A DNA stretch of 64,000 nucleotides from Anaerolineae bacterium (GTDB taxonomy: Bacteria; Chloroflexota; Anaerolineae; DRVO01): positions 48,969 to 112,968 of the forward strand of contig JABLXR010000017.1 in the NCBI GenBank assembly GCA_013178015.1. Direction: 5' to 3'. The notes under the pieces were generated by a model. It made no database searches. It was not told where the DNA came from and saw only the letters and a list, made by a program, of their open reading frames with translations. Shown here one piece after another: positions 33,540 through 61,928 of the stretch. Position 1 is the stretch's first letter. Every line of letters starts with the position of its first letter. The position numbers and the translations under genes are program-made.

Positions 33540-34370
33540 GCTACAACTGCGCCATCTCGGCCGGCATTATAGGCCCGACCCGTATGCGCATCAACCGCAT
33601 TCGCGCCTTACCCGCTCTAGTATGCAGCCACTGCACTCCTCAGGCGTCCTCGCCCCCCGCGTGTAACGGTCCGAACGCGCCCCGGAGGACAAGGCACAGA
33701 CTGCCTGGCCCTAGGAGCCTGGCCCCCCTCCTGCCAATCGTCCTCATGGGGGAATCGGCCCTGCCTCGGAGACGACAACGGGTGGAAGCCACCGGCGGCA
33801 GGTGGAATCAGTTGCGACCTCATAGGCACGCACTCGGTTCTGCCAGGTTCCCCGCTGCCCGGGCGCCCCAAAACAGCCGCAGACCAAAGCAGGACGCGCT
33901 ACGATCAGTGATCGGGGTTCGAGCCCAACCAGTGGGCTGGTTCGGCTCCCGTCTCCTGCTTGACGGCCGTGTGGCCGCCCTCTAGACTAGGGCCACGCCG
34001 GGCCGGAGAGGAAAACCGGCGGCTAGGCTGGCGACCCCTGCACTGGCCAGCAGGCCCGGGGGGCACCGTGCTAAGCTGTTCTCGAGGCTATGCCCCGCTC
34101 CCCGAAGGGAGATCGTGTAGCTTACCAGCTTACGACGCGCAGCAGGTGTGGCGTGCCTCTCCCACCGCTCCTGCCCGTATGTAGCCGGCCAGCACTGCCA
34201 TTCACCTGAGCCAGTCGCCGGCACCTCGCCGCTGGGCCCTGGCCTTCCTGCGCCACGGCCCTCGGGGCGAGGCAAAGCGAAGGCAGCCGATTGTGGCGGC
34301 CGCCGTGGCGTTGGTGCCAGAGCGTCTGAGATCTTAGGCCGTTGATCTTGACCGTTAGGAGGTGACTGCC
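33540..34370. other. Long intergenic region without recognised gene
   Basis: About 830 nt lie between the DUF4013 array and the cytochrome gene. Open frames exist on both strands but have biased, non-protein composition. A T-loop-like GGGTTCGAGCC at 33916-33926 does not fold into a tRNA. The last bases carry TTAGGAGGTG, the cytochrome ribosome-binding site. I see no known RNA motif; an unrecognised structured RNA or decayed gene is possible. Confidence 0.4.
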
Positions 34371-36488
34371 ATGAGCAGGGTCAGGCCGCCAGCGTTAGCG
34401 TCTGTGGTTGTTCTCTTGCTGATCTGTACCTCATCTGCCAATGCCTGGACTCCCGAGGCCATCGCTCTGGACCCCAGCGTGAGAATGCCGGGCACGCAAC
34501 CGAACGGGGCGATCACATTCCAGTCGGCAACGAGTTGCACCTGCCACTTCAACTACGGGCTCCCATCGTTCGAGATCGGGTTCAACTGGCAGGGCTCGCT
34601 TATGTCTCAGTCTGCGCGGGACCCCCTCTTCCTGGCCAGCATGGTGGTGGCCGCCCAGGATTCCATTTGGGCTTTCGGCAACCCCAACGCCGTAGATCTG
34701 TGCGAGCGCTGTCACTTCCCGATGGGGTGGCTGCGGGGCCACTCCGACCCGCCCAACGGCATCAACTTCATGGGCCCCGACTGGGAAGGCGTGAGCTGCG
34801 ATCTCTGCCACCGCATGTACGACCCCTTCTTCCAGGCCACCTTCAACGGCGCGCGCGAGCGAGGAACCATCCCAGAGGGCGTCTACTGGGATGAGGCCAC
34901 CACCGCCTCTCACACGGCGCTCTCCACCACTCTCGTGCAGGATCGCGCGGAGTCGACCACGGTTCAGATGTTCAACGGATCGCCGTTCTACGACCCAGCG
35001 TACATGCCCCCCGCAGGCTACACTGAGGCCGGCTCTGGGCAGATGTTCGTCTCAGCAGCGCCCAGCTATCGCGCGTCTTTCGCCGATGCCGTGGCGGGGC
35101 ATGGTAGTCTCTACAGCCGGTTCCACAAGAGCAGGTACTTCTGTGGCACGTGCCACGACGTGTCCAACCCGGTTCTGGCCAACCAGGGCGCCGACCCAAG
35201 CAACGCACTTCCGGCAGAGACGCAGTCAGCGTTCGCCTACGCCCACGCTGAGCGGACCTTCTCCGAGTTCGCCCTGTCGGCATTCGGTCAGCCCGGCGGT
35301 GCCGCGGGCAGTGGCTACTTCGCCCCCGGCTCGATCAACACCGCCCAACCGGGTGACCTGATCGCCTCCTGTCAGGACTGCCACATGCGCGATGCGGAGG
35401 GGTATGCTACTTCCACCTCTCTGACCCGGCCCACTGACAGCACCGAGCACCCGAATAGCGGCCTGCCCGTCCACGACATGACCGGAGGTGGCGCCTGGGT
35501 GGCCAGCATCCTCGCCAGCGTGGTTTCCGGGTCGGCCAGCTACGACGCCACGAACGCTAGCCTGCTGGGACAGGGGCCGCAGGTCTTGACGCTCGACCTG
35601 ACCCAGGGAGCGCCGTTGAACTGGGTAGCTCTACAAGCCGGCGCCGGTCGTGCCAGGCAACAGCTCCAGGTGGCCGCGTCTTTGGAAGACGTAGTCTACT
35701 ACCGCAACATGGGTACTCTCTCGTTCCGCATCCGGAACCACACCGGCCACAAGCTACTCACCGGCTACCCCGAGGGACGCCGCATGTTCGTCAACATCAG
35801 GGTATTCGATACCGCCAAGATCGCCCTGCCCATTCCGGTTTATGAGATCAATCCCTACGACTACACCGTGGGTACGCTCAAAGGTCTGCCTGGCGTCGCC
35901 AGCAGCCCTGCTCTGCAGGCCGATGAGAGGTACGAGGACAGGCTGGTGTACGAAGCCAAAGGCAGCAGTTCCCTGACCGGCGAGGCGCGGACGTTCCACT
36001 TCGCCCTGACCACCGGCCGCTACAAGGACAACCGCATCCCGCCAGCAGGTTTCGACGTCGCCAGCTCGGCAGCACGCTTGGCCGACCCTGTCTACAACGG
36101 CGTCTCCGCCTTGAACTACTTCACGGTGGACGAGTACGCGGGCGGCTACGATGACGTTCTGGTGACCGGTCTGCCTCTGAACGCCACTAGTGTGGAGGTG
36201 ACGCTGTTCTACCAGACCACTACCCGCGAGTACGTCGAGTTCCTGCGCGACGAGATCAATGGCACCGCCACCACGCTGGTGGGCACCGGCGCCGGCGGCG
36301 ACCCTCCTTACATCGTGAGCACGGATGGGTTCTTCTCCCACCTCCGGGGCTGGGGGGACACCATCTGGAACCTCTGGCTCCACAACAAGGACCTGCCCGG
36401 CGCGGCGCCCATACGGATGGCCAGCGCAACCGCGGCCGAGTCCCAAGTCACCATGACCTTCTTGCCGCTCGTAACCCGACAGCGGTGA
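34371..36488 (+). CDS. Secreted multihaem cytochrome c family protein
   Basis: The ATG at 34371 follows AGGAGG by 8 nt. The 705-residue protein has a signal peptide (A-L-A-S-V-V-V-L-L-L-I-C with cleavage near S-S-A-N-A). Four canonical haem-binding motifs follow: C-E-R-C-H (111-115), C-D-L-C-H (143-147), C-G-T-C-H (258-262) and C-Q-D-C-H (334-338). A fifth site reads C-T-C-H (56-59), one residue short of CxxCH. The C-terminal half is beta-rich (F-R-I-R-N-H-T-G-H-K-L-L-T-G-Y-P-E-G near 450) with extra His ligands, a pattern seen in cytochrome c554/NrfB-like proteins. It ends T-F-L-P-L-V-T-R-Q-R, resembling the tail of the giant secreted protein. Role in extracytoplasmic electron transfer; partner unknown. 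Confidence 0.82.
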   Translation: MSRVRPPALASVVVLLLICTSSANAWTPEAIALDPSVRMPGTQPNGAITFQSATSCTCHFNYGLPSFEIGFNWQGSLMSQSARDPLFLASMVVAAQDSIWAFGNPNAVDLCERCHFPMGWLRGHSDPPNGINFMGPDWEGVSCDLCHRMYDPFFQATFNGARERGTIPEGVYWDEATTASHTALSTTLVQDRAESTTVQMFNGSPFYDPAYMPPAGYTEAGSGQMFVSAAPSYRASFADAVAGHGSLYSRFHKSRYFCGTCHDVSNPVLANQGADPSNALPAETQSAFAYAHAERTFSEFALSAFGQPGGAAGSGYFAPGSINTAQPGDLIASCQDCHMRDAEGYATSTSLTRPTDSTEHPNSGLPVHDMTGGGAWVASILASVVSGSASYDATNASLLGQGPQVLTLDLTQGAPLNWVALQAGAGRARQQLQVAASLEDVVYYRNMGTLSFRIRNHTGHKLLTGYPEGRRMFVNIRVFDTAKIALPIPVYEINPYDYTVGTLKGLPGVASSPALQADERYEDRLVYEAKGSSSLTGEARTFHFALTTGRYKDNRIPPAGFDVASSAARLADPVYNGVSALNYFTVDEYAGGYDDVLVTGLPLNATSVEVTLFYQTTTREYVEFLRDEINGTATTLVGTGAGGDPPYIVSTDGFFSHLRGWGDTIWNLWLHNKDLPGAAPIRMASATAAESQVTMTFLPLVTRQR

Positions 36489-38593: not shown

Positions 38594-39295
38594 CTACTCC
38601 TCCTCGATCTCCACTGTGAAGAGGGTATCGCCCGGGTAGGAGGGGTTCTCGCGCGGATCCCGCAACCGCAGGGACAGAGCTACATCCATCCCCTCCACCA
38701 CTCTGCCGAAGATGGTGTGGGCCCCGTTGAGCCAGGGCGTGGGAACGAAGGTGATGAAGAACTGGCTGCCGTTAGTGTTGGCCCCGGCGTTGGCCATGGC
38801 CAGCAGACCGGGCTCATCGAAGGCAAGACCGGGGTCTATCTCATCCTCGAAGCGGTAACCGGGGCCGCCGCTCCCGGTGCCGGTCGGGTCGCCCCCCTGG
38901 GCCATGAAGTCCGCCAGCACCCGGTGGAAAGTGGTGTTGTCGTAGAAGCCCTCGCGGGCCAGGAAGACGAAGTTGTTGACCGTCTTAGGCGCCCAATCCG
39001 CGAACAGCTCCACCCGGATGTCCCCCTTCTCCGTCTTGAGAGTGGCGAAGTAGGTCTTTGCCGTGTCGATGGTCATCGGGGGCGGGCTGGTCCACTGCTT
39101 AGGCGCGGGCATGCTGCTCTCTCCCTGAGTCGGGGTAGCGATCTCCGGGTAGGCGGTGGCGCGGATGCGGGCGGCCTGAGTGGCCTGTACACCCGCATCC
39201 GGTGTGCTCCCACCACAGCCGGCCAGGAGGTGCCCCGGCACCAACCCGGCGAGAATCAGGAATGCCCGCCTGCAGCGCAACGTGGCTGGTGGCAT
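38594..39295 (-). CDS. Cyclophilin-type peptidyl-prolyl isomerase lipoprotein
   Basis: I chose the ATG at 39295, preceded by AAGGAAGA; the frame continues upstream to 39394 without support. The ~233-residue protein has a signal with lipobox L-L-A-G-C and a Gly/Ser/Thr linker. The cyclophilin domain follows: [32 protein letters not shown] (active-site Arg, Phe, Met, Gln) and N-G-S-Q-F-F-I-T. It would catalyse cis-trans prolyl isomerisation outside the cytoplasmic membrane. It starts 141 nt downstream of msrA's stop on the same strand, so both may belong to extracytoplasmic protein care. Confidence 0.92.
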
Positions 39296-39436
39296 GGTAC
39301 TCTTCCTTGGAGTGGGGATCCCTGGCGCCTGCCTCCCCCACCGGTCAGGAGGCCGGCGCGCGCTGAGGATAGTGACCGCGCCGCGCGCTGTCAAGGTGGG
39401 CGGCGCGGTCAGGTGCGTAGCTGGACGGGCTTCAGC

Positions 39437-40252
39437 CTATCGCGCCCGGCGCCCCACCAGGGCCAGCAGAGCCTGGTTGGCCTGGGGCGAGAGGCCATAG
39501 CTGCTTAGCTCTTGGCGCAGCACTTCGACCTCCCCATACCCGCCCAGGTATCCGTTGGCTCGGGCGGCGGCAGTGGAGTCCACGATATCGGCCTCGTCGG
39601 GGTACATGGCCTGGAACTCCCGCATGATCTCTGGCGTGTTGCGCAGGAAGTACTTCTGATGGTAGCCCTCGGCTAGGTAGAAGTGGTCCAGTGGCTTCAC
39701 TTCGGTGTAGATTCCCTCTCCAGAGGCGCGCTCCAGCCCCTCCTTCGACTCGAGGATCGCCCGTTTCTGGTCCTCGTCCTGGTAGAAGGCGATGGAGGCA
39801 TACTGGCGTGACCACGGCCGGCGCGAAGGGTTGTGGCTGCTCCAGAACACATCCAGCAGTTGCTCGAAGCTGACGCGCTCGGGATCGTAGTCCACCTGGA
39901 CCGTCTCACTGTGATCGCCGAGGTCATAGTAGGTGGGGTTCGGCTTGGTGCCGCCGGCGTAGCCCACGCGGGTGCGGACCACTCCGGCCATACTCCCGAA
40001 CCGGGAGTCGGGACCCCAGAATCAGCCCAGAGCGAAGGTGGCCGTCTTCACCTGTGCGGGCTGGGCTCTATCTATGGGCGGCGCGTTCGTCTCAGGCCTG
40101 GGTTCGGCTGCCATAACGTCACTCTCCTGATTCATGCTAACGGAGACGATTAGAAGTGAGAACACCAGCAGGCCGAGCAACAGCAGGAGCCTGCTGAGGC
40201 GGACATTGAGGGTGCGGCTTGAGAACAGCTGGACACCTCCTCCAGAAGTCAT
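39437..40252 (-). CDS. msrA: Selenocysteine-containing, membrane-targeted methionine sulfoxide reductase A (UGA recoded at 40022-40024)
   Basis: Reading one in-frame TGA as selenocysteine gives a 271-residue MsrA. Residues 1-60 are a basic start, a Leu-rich membrane/signal segment and a hydrophilic linker. Then come V-K-T-A-T-F-A-L-G, Sec77, F-W-G-P-D-S-R-F-G: the catalytic G-C-F-W-G motif with TGA in place of the Cys codon. Downstream the family is intact: V-G-Y-A-G-G-T, G-D-H-S-E-T-V-Q-V-D-Y-D-P, H-N-P-S-R-R-P-W-S-R-Q-Y and E-G-Y-H-Q-K-Y. The whole protein has no Cys, so Sec would be its only redox residue. A SECIS-like hairpin lies just after the TGA. MsrA repairs Met-S-sulfoxide. The alternative is a pseudogene with a Cys-to-stop mutation, less likely given the hairpin and the intact frame. 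Confidence 0.88.
39992..40008 (-). promoter_or_regulatory. Putative bacterial SECIS hairpin inside msrA
   Basis: On the mRNA strand ACTCCCGGTTCGGGAGT folds into a perfect 6- to 7-bp stem with GGUUC (or GUU) at the tip. It begins 13 nt after the TGA. Counting the U of UGA as 1, the loop GGU is at 23-25; in the E. coli fdhF element it is at 22-24. SelB recognises a GGU-type apical loop at this distance. Confidence 0.8.
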
Positions 40253-44819: not shown

Positions 44820-45263
44820 CTACGGCGCGTCGCCTCCGATCCAGTACGCCCAGGTCACCCCGTGGTTCACCAGGGCATCAACCAGTCTATGATCGGCACT
44901 CCATAGGGCCGCCCCGGCCCGCTCGGCGAGGGCCACGTAGAAGCTGTCGTAGGCCGACGCGCGTCCGAGACGCAGAGTCCAGCCGTAGGCGCTGCCGGTG
45001 AGACCGGCATCCGGAACCACCAGTCGCACCTCAAGGGAATGCGCCAGCGCCAGTGCCCGACGACCCTCGTCCCGGGTCAGTTGGTCGAAGTGCACCGCCT
45101 TGCACAGAGCAGAGGTGACCTCATAGATCCAGAGACTGGGTGCACTCAAGGAGCTACCTTCTCCTCGCCAGCGTTCCATCAGTTCGCGGCACGAGGCCTG
45201 GCGCGGCCCTGGCAGCAGAAGTCTGAAGGCGAAGCTGGCGTCAATCACCACCGAGTCGGCCAT
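44820..45263 (-). CDS. PIN-domain toxin (VapC-like), pair 1
   Basis: The ATG at 45263 follows CTGGAGGAGCG. The 147-residue product begins M-A-D-S-V-V-I-D-A-S-F-A (first catalytic Asp) and has I-Y-E-V-T-S-A-L (Glu), A-Y-D-S-F-Y-V-A-L-A-E (Asp) and W-S-A-D-H-R-L (last Asp), the acidic quartet of PIN nucleases. VapC toxins cleave tRNA or rRNA. Its start overlaps the upstream antitoxin gene by 23 nt, the usual toxin-antitoxin arrangement. The cell would be protected by the Phd/YefM-like partner. Confidence 0.87.
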   Translation of the reverse strand: MADSVVIDASFAFRLLLPGPRQASCRELMERWRGEGSSLSAPSLWIYEVTSALCKAVHFDQLTRDEGRRALALAHSLEVRLVVPDAGLTGSAYGWTLRLGRASAYDSFYVALAERAGAALWSADHRLVDALVNHGVTWAYWIGGDAP

Positions 45264-45561
45264 CGCGCTCCTCCAGCTCCGCCCGGGCCTGGGTCCAGAT
45301 CCCATCCAGATCCAGCGGTTGGCCGCCCCGTCGCCTCTGGATATCCGAACTCAGCCTCTCGCTTTCTGCCAGCCAGGCCCGCCAACTGGAGCCATCGGAG
45401 GTCTGGTTCTTCAGGCGGTCATAGTCGTCCACGCTGATCAGCACCGCCTTAGCCTTGCCACGAGAGGTCAGGACCACCCTCTCGCCTCCGTAGGCCACCC
45501 GGTTCAGCAGCTCGGACAGGTCTCTCTTCACGCGGCCAATGCTCACGCGCACCTCGGCCAT
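45241..45561 (-). CDS. Phd/YefM-type antitoxin, pair 1
   Basis: I chose the ATG at 45561 behind CAGGAGAGCGATCC. The 106-residue product has the fold signature M-A-E-V-R-V-S-I-G-R-V-K-R-D-L-S-E-L-L-N-R-V and R-V-V-L-T-S-R-G-K-A-K-A-V-L-I-S-V-D-D-Y, typical of Phd/YefM DNA-binding antitoxins. The C-terminal ~40 residues should wrap the PIN toxin. It likely represses its own promoter. The toxin gene overlaps its 3' end. Confidence 0.86.
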   Translation of the reverse strand: MAEVRVSIGRVKRDLSELLNRVAYGGERVVLTSRGKAKAVLISVDDYDRLKNQTSDGSSWRAWLAESERLSSDIQRRRGGQPLDLDGIWTQARAELEERDGRLGGD

Positions 45562-45715
45562 GGATCGCTCTCCTGGTTGCACCGTATTCTCTATAGCCAT
45601 ATTACAACACCCCAGAGCACCGAAGGCAACCGGGACAGTAACAGCCCAGGATCGGGGCTCGCAACAGCTTCCCCGATGCTGGGCCGTTGCCTCCGGCGGC
45701 GTGGGAATGCAGGAC

Positions 45716-61336: not shown

Positions 61337-61759
61337 TCACTCGCCCTCCTCTTCCCCAGCCTCCTCCTGAGGCAAGAAGCGCAGGGCCGCCGAATTGATG
61401 CAGTAGCGCAGACCGGTGGGCCGGGGCCCGTCCGTGAACACATGCCCCAAGTGGGCGTCGCAGACCTGGCACACTACCTCGGTGCGTACCATGCCGTGGC
61501 TGCGATCGGCCCGCTCGCTCACCGCCTGCTCGTGCTCGGGCGCCGTGAAGCTGGGCCACCCTGTGCCCGACTCGAACTTCGCCTCGGAGCGGAACAGACG
61601 GTTGCCGCAGCACACGCACACGTAGTGGCCCTCCTCGTGGTGGTCCCAGTACTCACCGGTGAAAGGCGGTTCCGTGCCCGCCTGCCGCGTGACTCGATAC
61701 TGCTCCGCAGTCAACTGCTCCCGCCATTCCTCGTCAGTCTTCCTAACCTTGTCAGCCAT
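61337..61759 (-). CDS. msrB: Methionine sulfoxide reductase B, cytosolic
   Basis: I chose the ATG at 61759; the frame upstream is repeat-derived (family C). The 140-residue product has the two zinc C-x-x-C pairs (C-V-C-C-G region and C-Q-V-C-D), E-S-G-T-G-W-P-S-F, and G-L-R-Y-C-I-N-S with the catalytic Cys. It reduces Met-R-sulfoxide, complementing MsrA. It has no signal peptide and no Sec codon, unlike the MsrA at 39.4-40.3 kb. So the two Msr enzymes of this window act in different compartments and use different nucleophiles. Confidence 0.95.
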
Positions 61760-61784
61760 TTGGTCAACCTCACATTGTGGAGAT

Positions 61785-61821
61785 TTCACCGCTGAGATCG
61801 CTGAGACCGCAGAGAAGAAAC
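61785..61821. repeat. Family C repeat, inverted partner 1
   Basis: ACCGCTGAGATCGCTGAGAC followed by CGCAGAGAAGAAAC. It is the inverse of the copy at 61929-61966, so the ~180-bp segment between msrB and the DUF1624 gene looks like a MITE-type element with degenerate terminal inverted repeats. Confidence 0.6.
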
Positions 61822-61928
61822 ATCGGGTATGTAAGCGCAACCTCTACCGAATCGAGTCCCCTGACGAGCTACGCCGTCTCCGAGCGAACTCCGTCAAGGA
61901 GGAACTAACTGCGGCTCCGTTTCTTCAC

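Follow-up and report, generated by a model that had tools for sequence, protein, structure and literature searches.

Selenocysteine (Sec) forms of MsrA occur in Chlamydomonas and in Clostridium oremlandii, of which Alkaliphilus oremlandii is a synonym. According to the available parts of PMC4333827 and PMC4479559, the C. oremlandii enzyme (CoMsrA) contains Sec and no Cys, possesses a distinct helical domain without which nearly all of the activity is lost, shows with Sec 20 times the activity of its Cys form, and uses glutaredoxin rather than thioredoxin as its reductant. MsrA is listed as a selenoprotein of Syntrophobacter fumaroxidans in the available part of PMC1794560, nine sequences of the Global Ocean Sampling are given as Sec-MsrA in that of PMC2398784, and a review of 2026 (PMC13188914, available part) names MBI4965933.1 as its MsrA example. 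The statement in the initial annotation of the locus described here, that Sec-MsrA is known from some organisms, thus agrees with the literature, in which C. oremlandii, S. fumaroxidans and the ocean sequences are all represented.

The locus lies in a 64-kb stretch of DNA, the whole of which is called the window in this work. The main reading of its msrA holds: we judge the gene to be a genuine member of a known selenoprotein family, encoding a predicted membrane-anchored variant. We regard it as highly probable that the UGA codon of msrA is read as Sec by means of a conserved predicted SECIS hairpin and that the product, predicted to be anchored in the membrane, would repair oxidised Met at the outer face of the membrane. 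The following features were delimited:

39437..40252, minus strand: msrA frame, 271 codons long when the UGA is translated; the ATG at 40252 is assumed as the start
40022..40024, minus strand: in-frame TGA, residue 77, at the catalytic nucleophile position of G-U-F-W-G; likely Sec codon
40139..40216, minus strand: N-terminal helix, residues 13-38; predicted signal anchor or signal peptide, from hydropathy and the structure model
39635..40045, minus strand: MsrA catalytic domain PF01625, residues 70-206, from the Pfam profile and the structure model
39482..39580, minus strand: C-terminal helical domain PF20939 (profile score slightly below the cut-off), residues 225-257, from the Pfam profile and the structure model
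39991..40009, minus strand: predicted bacterial SECIS hairpin with the stem ACUCCC/GGGAGU (40008-40003 with 39997-39992)

Reading frame, domains and active site

The initial annotation had described a minus-strand frame from 40252 to 39437 that is open but for a single TGA lying on the catalytic Cys codon of MsrA, and the translation bears this out: it comprises 271 residues with the sole internal stop at residue 77, flanked by TFALG before and FWGPD after (ALG-U-FWGPD). The further claims that the 194 codons after the TGA are open with intact MsrA motifs and that the protein lacks Cys are also correct, since the PMSR match spans the TGA, the active-site positions are identical to those of CoMsrA and 0 Cys was counted in 271 residues. 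As had been anticipated, standard gene calling splits msrA into a 184-aa ORF (39437-39991) and a 76-aa ORF (40022-40252). The 184-aa piece of Sec-MsrA is itself present in the protein database as entry P0001, and two relatives, P0002 (95% identical) and P0003 (85% identical), begin at the same Met as this piece.

The Pfam PMSR profile (PF01625) matched residues 70-206, crossing the TGA, with 138 bits against a cut-off of 23.7 (E 3.9e-40). The profile PF20939, named "selenoprotein MsrA helical domain", scored 21.9 bits, slightly below the 23.7 cut-off (E 1.5e-4). Despite this score a PF20939-type helical domain is, in our judgement, present in the window protein, since the sequence alignment to CoMsrA extends through residue 266 and the predicted structure matches the 205-residue chain of 4LWJ. 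The AlphaFold2 model, built with 42 sequences and Cys substituted for Sec, has a mean pLDDT of 91.4 and aligned with 4LWJ over 205 columns of that chain with a TM of 0.92 by target length (Foldseek E 2.3e-25 to CoMsrA); it additionally shows a helix at residues 13-38. The top seven matches among solved structures are the C. oremlandii selenoprotein MsrA and its variants, with 223.6 down to 189 bits, and the first MsrA structure after those seven scored 102 bits. Among those seven is 7c13, whose title presents it as the partner in a glutaredoxin complex.

Nine active-site positions (Sec/Cys, Phe, Trp, Tyr, Glu, Gln, Tyr, His, Tyr), taken from the list for CoMsrA in the available part of PMC4333827, were checked. 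The window protein is identical to CoMsrA at all nine, and among the 23 UGA proteins of the class survey described below the same positions are all conserved save the last Tyr (22/23). No Cys follows the Sec in 17 of these 23 proteins.

Decoding of the UGA codon and the predicted SECIS hairpin

The survey covered 396 genomes of the same class, 237 of them with some MsrA match, and the catalytic codon was read in 31 fetched loci, the paralogue of the window genome included, the TGA counts for the class being lower bounds. The codon was TGA in 23 loci (the window genome and 22 others), TGC in five and TGT in two, and in the remaining locus (L035) the frame is disrupted around the TGA, for which reason it was dropped before the counts. 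TGA thus occupies the catalytic codon in at least 23 of the 396 class genomes, that of the window included. The 23 TGA loci are close matches of the helical type, of which L034 alone has TGC. When 400 genomes of the phylum were searched at E <= 1e-40, four matched, namely the window genome, another of the class and two that do not belong to it; each of the four has TGA. The TGA genes of the 22 further class genomes and of the two genomes outside the class encode proteins of 43-59% identity, and their frames stay open after the TGA. The 80 named homologues that were fetched, from Dehalococcoidia, Bipolaricaulota, Omnitrophota, Planctomycetota, Halobacteria and others, have TGC in 41 and TGT in 39 cases, the search pattern containing Cys so that TGA was hardly findable there. 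At the Sec/Cys column of 120 listed database proteins there are 95 Cys, 20 Trp, one Ser and one Arg, and three proteins start after the column. The Ser and the Arg belong to the database homologues P0070 and P0115. The 20 Trp would most simply reflect TGA read as Trp by gene callers.

The initial annotation had proposed two checks on the relatives, namely whether TGA alternates with TGC/TGT at this column and whether near relatives carry other stops or indels. The alternation was seen in the alignment, and in the near relatives the TGA is conserved, the one disrupted frame (L035) still retaining it. Internal stops were also met in G325 (TGA), G339 (TAG) and G347 (TAG), but these have Cys at the column and were rejected as ordinary MsrA. 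G025, of the same genus and with tRNA-Sec, gave no MsrA match at all, and the viral contigs searched yielded two distant Cys MsrA only. On a tree of 65 rows the Sec/Cys labels need at least seven changes (bootstrap 5-8), of which the starred, well-supported branches force only one; repeated gain or loss of Sec in the MsrA tree is, on this sequence evidence, likely. The Cys MsrA L052 of a Dehalococcoidia bacterium retains the full hairpin (7/7 pairs), as would be expected from a recent replacement of Sec by Cys.

These data bear on the possibility that the UGA is a genuine stop, or else a sequencing error or pseudogene mutation with TGC or TGT as the true codon. UGA does serve as a stop elsewhere in the window, where four of the nine frames checked end in TGA, EamA and MsrB among them, and the unremarkable folding of the single sequence (see below) would fit a broken gene. 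Such a gene is not compatible with the same TGA recurring in 22 further class genomes and two outside the class ahead of an open frame, nor with the third-position-biased divergence after the UGA, where 59, 48 and 101 changes against L023 fall on codon positions 1, 2 and 3 of the 194 codons. The hairpin is moreover constrained, and the two database relatives begin at the same Met after the UGA. The conserved TGA and the hairpin leave sequencing error or pseudogene virtually eliminated, and we consider a stop or a broken codon extremely improbable.

The residue would likewise not be Sec if the organism read UGA generally as another amino acid, for example Trp, and the Trp found at the column in 20 of the 120 listed homologues could be taken in that sense. 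Against this, TGA terminates other genes of the window, a tRNA-Sec with the anticodon TCA is encoded together with SelA, SelB and SelD, and the alternative residue in the 80 named homologues is Cys (TGC/TGT), while Trp would provide no nucleophile. On the grounds of the TGA stops in the window, the tRNA-Sec and the Cys alternative, general recoding of UGA was rejected as scarcely credible. The UGA at residue 77 is therefore, as far as can be judged from sequence, probably decoded as Sec.

The initial annotation had called for a search for selA, selB, selC and selD in the same genome, and all four were found in the assembly, a draft of 4.57 Mb in 97 contigs (95% complete, 2.9% contamination). 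The tRNA-Sec (anticodon TCA) scored 76.7 bits, SelB 336 bits, SelA 440.6 bits and SelD 342 bits. In this draft assembly the sel genes lie on contigs other than that of msrA, and a tRNA search of the 64-kb window gave none. The selD gene (L017, C50:15894-16829) contains one in-frame TGA, giving the peptide AAG-U-AAK, and 32 nt after this TGA there is a hairpin with the GGUUC pentaloop, as in msrA; SelD of this genome is thus likely to be a selenoprotein itself. Among the other 22 class genomes with TGA, 17 have a tRNA-Sec of at least 64 bits, and the five without it consist of 420 to 620 contigs each, one of them being rated 99% complete. An enrichment of tRNA-Sec in the TGA genomes was considered as added proof and fails, since at E <= 1e-10 tRNA-Sec occurs in 294 of the 396 class genomes (74%) and its presence does not single out those with TGA. 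Its occurrence in the TGA genomes is a precondition in place, not a correlation.

The predicted SECIS hairpin begins 13 nt after the UGA and carries the pentaloop GGUUC (40002-39998), 19 nt from the UGA, the outer G and C of which are able to pair. Relatives also pair the outermost two columns (40009, 39991), which are unpaired in the window gene. The bSECIS criteria given in the available part of PMC13188914 are a loop of 3-9 nt, a stem of 4-16 bp, a G in the first two loop positions, a distance of 16-37 nt from the UGA and an MFE of -7.5 or lower. The window hairpin lies within these limits, with a loop of 3 or 5 nt, 6-7 bp, the G present, 19 nt of distance and -10.9 kcal/mol. The hairpin that the initial annotation had suggested looking for with bSECISearch was hence found by the published criteria, and it is constrained at the nucleotide level as well. 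Folding of the single sequence was unexceptional, with z of -0.40, -2.15 and 0.03 for the three segments folded, and an Rfam scan of the 64-kb window gave no match at gathering scores. Since the single-sequence folding was unremarkable, the conservation of pairing was tested.

For each gene the codons were redrawn synonymously with the gene's own usage in 2000 draws. The 23 UGA genes have a mean of 6.35 of 7 pairs against 4.09 (sd 0.22) in this null, none of the 2000 draws being as high, and at least six pairs are found in 19 of the 23. A set of 36 Cys homologues, picked by us from 81 rows and including L034 and L056, which by length (7093) are the same contig and are identical in the tree, has 2.56 pairs against 2.44 (450 of 2000 draws as high) and shows no hairpin excess. 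In the alignment of the UGA genes 88.6% of cells pair, compared with 81.7% in shuffles (0/500 as high), and 16 cells are changed on both sides, the shuffle mean being 7.5 (0/500 as high); the 23 sequences being related, neither the shuffles nor the null draws amount to independent trials. Among these double changes, one pair has gone from U-A to G-C in six sequences, and the loop-closing pair from G-C to A-U in eight. Two other measures did not rise above the control: the count of pairs altered on both sides was 3 (reached in 200 of 500 shuffles), and that of further pair types was 7 (460 of 500). When the partners were slid by 1-3 columns the pairing fell to 59% or less.

After Phe, in the 3' arm, all 22 UGA genes that encode Gly at that position use GGG for it, against 8 of 35 genes of the Cys set. 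The 23rd UGA gene, L038, has Glu in place of this Gly and has lost most of the stem (-1.3 kcal/mol). As an isolated 19-nt element the hairpin reaches -7.5 kcal/mol or better in 21 of the 23 genes. The two UGA genes outside the class, which were not used in defining the stem, have 5 and 6 of the 7 pairs and the GGUUC loop.

N-terminus, predicted location and proposed mechanism

No good ribosome site precedes the assumed ATG, and the stretch GGAGGAGG sits within the msrA frame (39437-40252) downstream of it, so that the assignment of the start codon is tentative. Counted from this ATG, Arg13, Arg18 and Arg21 stand at the start of the helix and are followed by a hydrophobic stretch at residues 22-40, with a Kyte-Doolittle value of 2.80 over 19 residues. 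The first alternative start codons in the frame (ATG, GTG or TTG) are those of residues 25, 30 and 40, within or at the end of the hydrophobic stretch. With a limit of at least 1.9, chosen by us, a hydrophobic N-terminus was scored in 15 of the 23 UGA proteins, six of which have a lipobox-like Cys; of the eight that score none, two (L025 and L026) are MsrB-Sec-MsrA fusions whose hydrophobic N-terminus ahead of MsrB lay outside the score. In their extended form (L134:4878-5591 and L135:6952-7629) these fusions have MsrB in front of Sec-MsrA and would be membrane-anchored MsrB-MsrA(Sec) proteins. In G049 an MsrB frame lies directly upstream of Sec-MsrA. A further MsrA encoded in the window genome is of the cytosolic type, has GCFWC and contains four Cys; owing to this separate enzyme the Sec-MsrA copy would be free for another compartment.

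From its sequence and model the window Sec-MsrA is predicted to be anchored in the membrane or exported. The hydrophobic N-termini, the MsrB fusions and the separate cytosolic-type MsrA speak for a location outside the membrane as the likelier one. It would be unlikely, in our estimate, that the enzyme is a genuine Sec-MsrA residing in the cytosol, either because the N-terminal helix is no export signal or because translation starts after it. The lack of a good ribosome site before the assumed ATG and the stretch noted inside the frame would suit a cytosolic enzyme, as would the eight non-scoring UGA proteins (the two fusions with their unscored stretch among them) and the C. oremlandii enzyme, which starts 15 residues before Sec. 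It is harder to reconcile with a stretch of such hydrophobicity preceded by three Arg, which has its like in 15 of the 23 UGA proteins, six of them lipobox-like, with next start codons that fall within or at the end of that stretch, and with the presence of a separate cytosolic-type MsrA.

For the membrane-anchored or exported Sec-MsrA the following mechanism is proposed. SelB with Sec-tRNA-Sec would bind the hairpin and insert Sec77, as the genes and the hairpin suggest, and the N-terminal helix is predicted to anchor or export the protein. By analogy with the C. oremlandii enzyme, Sec77 would attack methionine-S-sulfoxide, free methionine and turn into a selenenic acid. Since the protein contains no Cys, the selenenic acid could not be resolved within the chain and an outside thiol would be needed for its reduction. 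An exported enzyme would have no access to a glutaredoxin in the cytosol, so our guess for the reductant is a membrane route, for example through the CcdA/DsbD-type protein of the genome, or small thiols. A single glutaredoxin (48.5 bits) and a single membrane protein of the CcdA/DsbD type (57.4 bits) came out of the family searches of the genome.

The window also contains the sole MsrB (PF01641) match of the genome, at 61337-61840 on the minus strand and some 21 kb away from Sec-MsrA; this MsrB is of the Cys type and by eye has no clear export signal. In a comparison of the neighbours in 25 regions (the window and 24 loci) no frame besides msrA recurs in more than five, the recurring clusters being by eye antisense frames, permease-like frames and aminotransferase-like frames, and MsrB adjoins Sec-MsrA or is fused to it in three of the 25. 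The gene after msrA on the same strand (38594-39394, minus) encodes a cyclophilin (PF00160) with an N-terminus that by eye resembles a lipoprotein signal. At 34362-36488 (plus strand) there is a 708-aa exported-looking protein with several CxxCH motifs, by eye c-type cytochrome-like, which matched no Pfam family at E 0.001. The overlapping pair 44820-45305 and 45241-45600 (both minus) resembles, by eye, a PIN-domain toxin with its Phd/YefM-type antitoxin.

Comparison with known systems

The Cys MsrA of the same clade, from Dehalococcoidia, Bipolaricaulota, Halobacteria and Halanaerobium, resemble the window protein in the catalytic region, and several have a hydrophobic N-terminus; many of the Halobacteria rows have one Cys only. 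They differ in having TGC or TGT in place of TGA, and as a group they show no hairpin excess. The Sec-MsrA of S. fumaroxidans and of the Global Ocean Sampling are alike in being selenoprotein MsrA, a likeness drawn from their listing in the available parts of the sources.

A different comparison is offered by Neisseria PilB, streptococcal MsrAB2 and MsrPQ, which we take to be exported bacterial Msr systems and with which the shared task would be methionine sulfoxide repair outside the cytoplasm. These systems are Cys- or Mo-based, and to our knowledge none of them is a selenoprotein. PilB structures appear among the Foldseek matches of the model.

In the open-licence PMC literature searched, no exported or membrane-anchored Sec-MsrA and no Sec-MsrA of Chloroflexota was found, and the word Chloroflex- is absent from the main text of the 2026 review (PMC13188914). 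The Sec-MsrA family is known, and the variant whose N-terminus carries a hydrophobic segment, joined to MsrB in two of the genomes, seems to be undescribed. A wider proposal, whose chances we see as evenly balanced, is that Chloroflexota possess a clade of exported, Cys-free Sec-MsrA tethered outside the membrane, some of them fused behind MsrB for both methionine sulfoxide isomers, and that an extracytoplasmic electron route would reduce the lone selenenic acid without a resolving Cys. The proteins concerned form a set of Chloroflexota proteins that are easily mis-annotated, being cut short after the UGA or having the UGA read as Trp.

The closest known system is CoMsrA (PDB 4LWJ-4LWM, 4U66), with which the window protein shares Sec in G-U-F-W-G, zero Cys, the active-site residues that were checked and, in our judgement, the C-terminal helical domain. 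The two differ at the N-terminus: CoMsrA has 209 residues, 15 of them before Sec, whereas the window protein has 76 residues before Sec with the predicted membrane helix. They may also differ in the reductant, which for CoMsrA is glutaredoxin according to the available parts of PMC4333827 and PMC4479559, whereas the window enzyme, if exported, would lie beyond a cytosolic glutaredoxin. Sec-MsrA is known as soluble and dependent on glutaredoxin; the present reading moves it to a predicted place outside the membrane, where the cytosolic partner would not reach it. If this reading is right, the question becomes what reduces a one-residue selenium active site there and why selenium is worth its cost.
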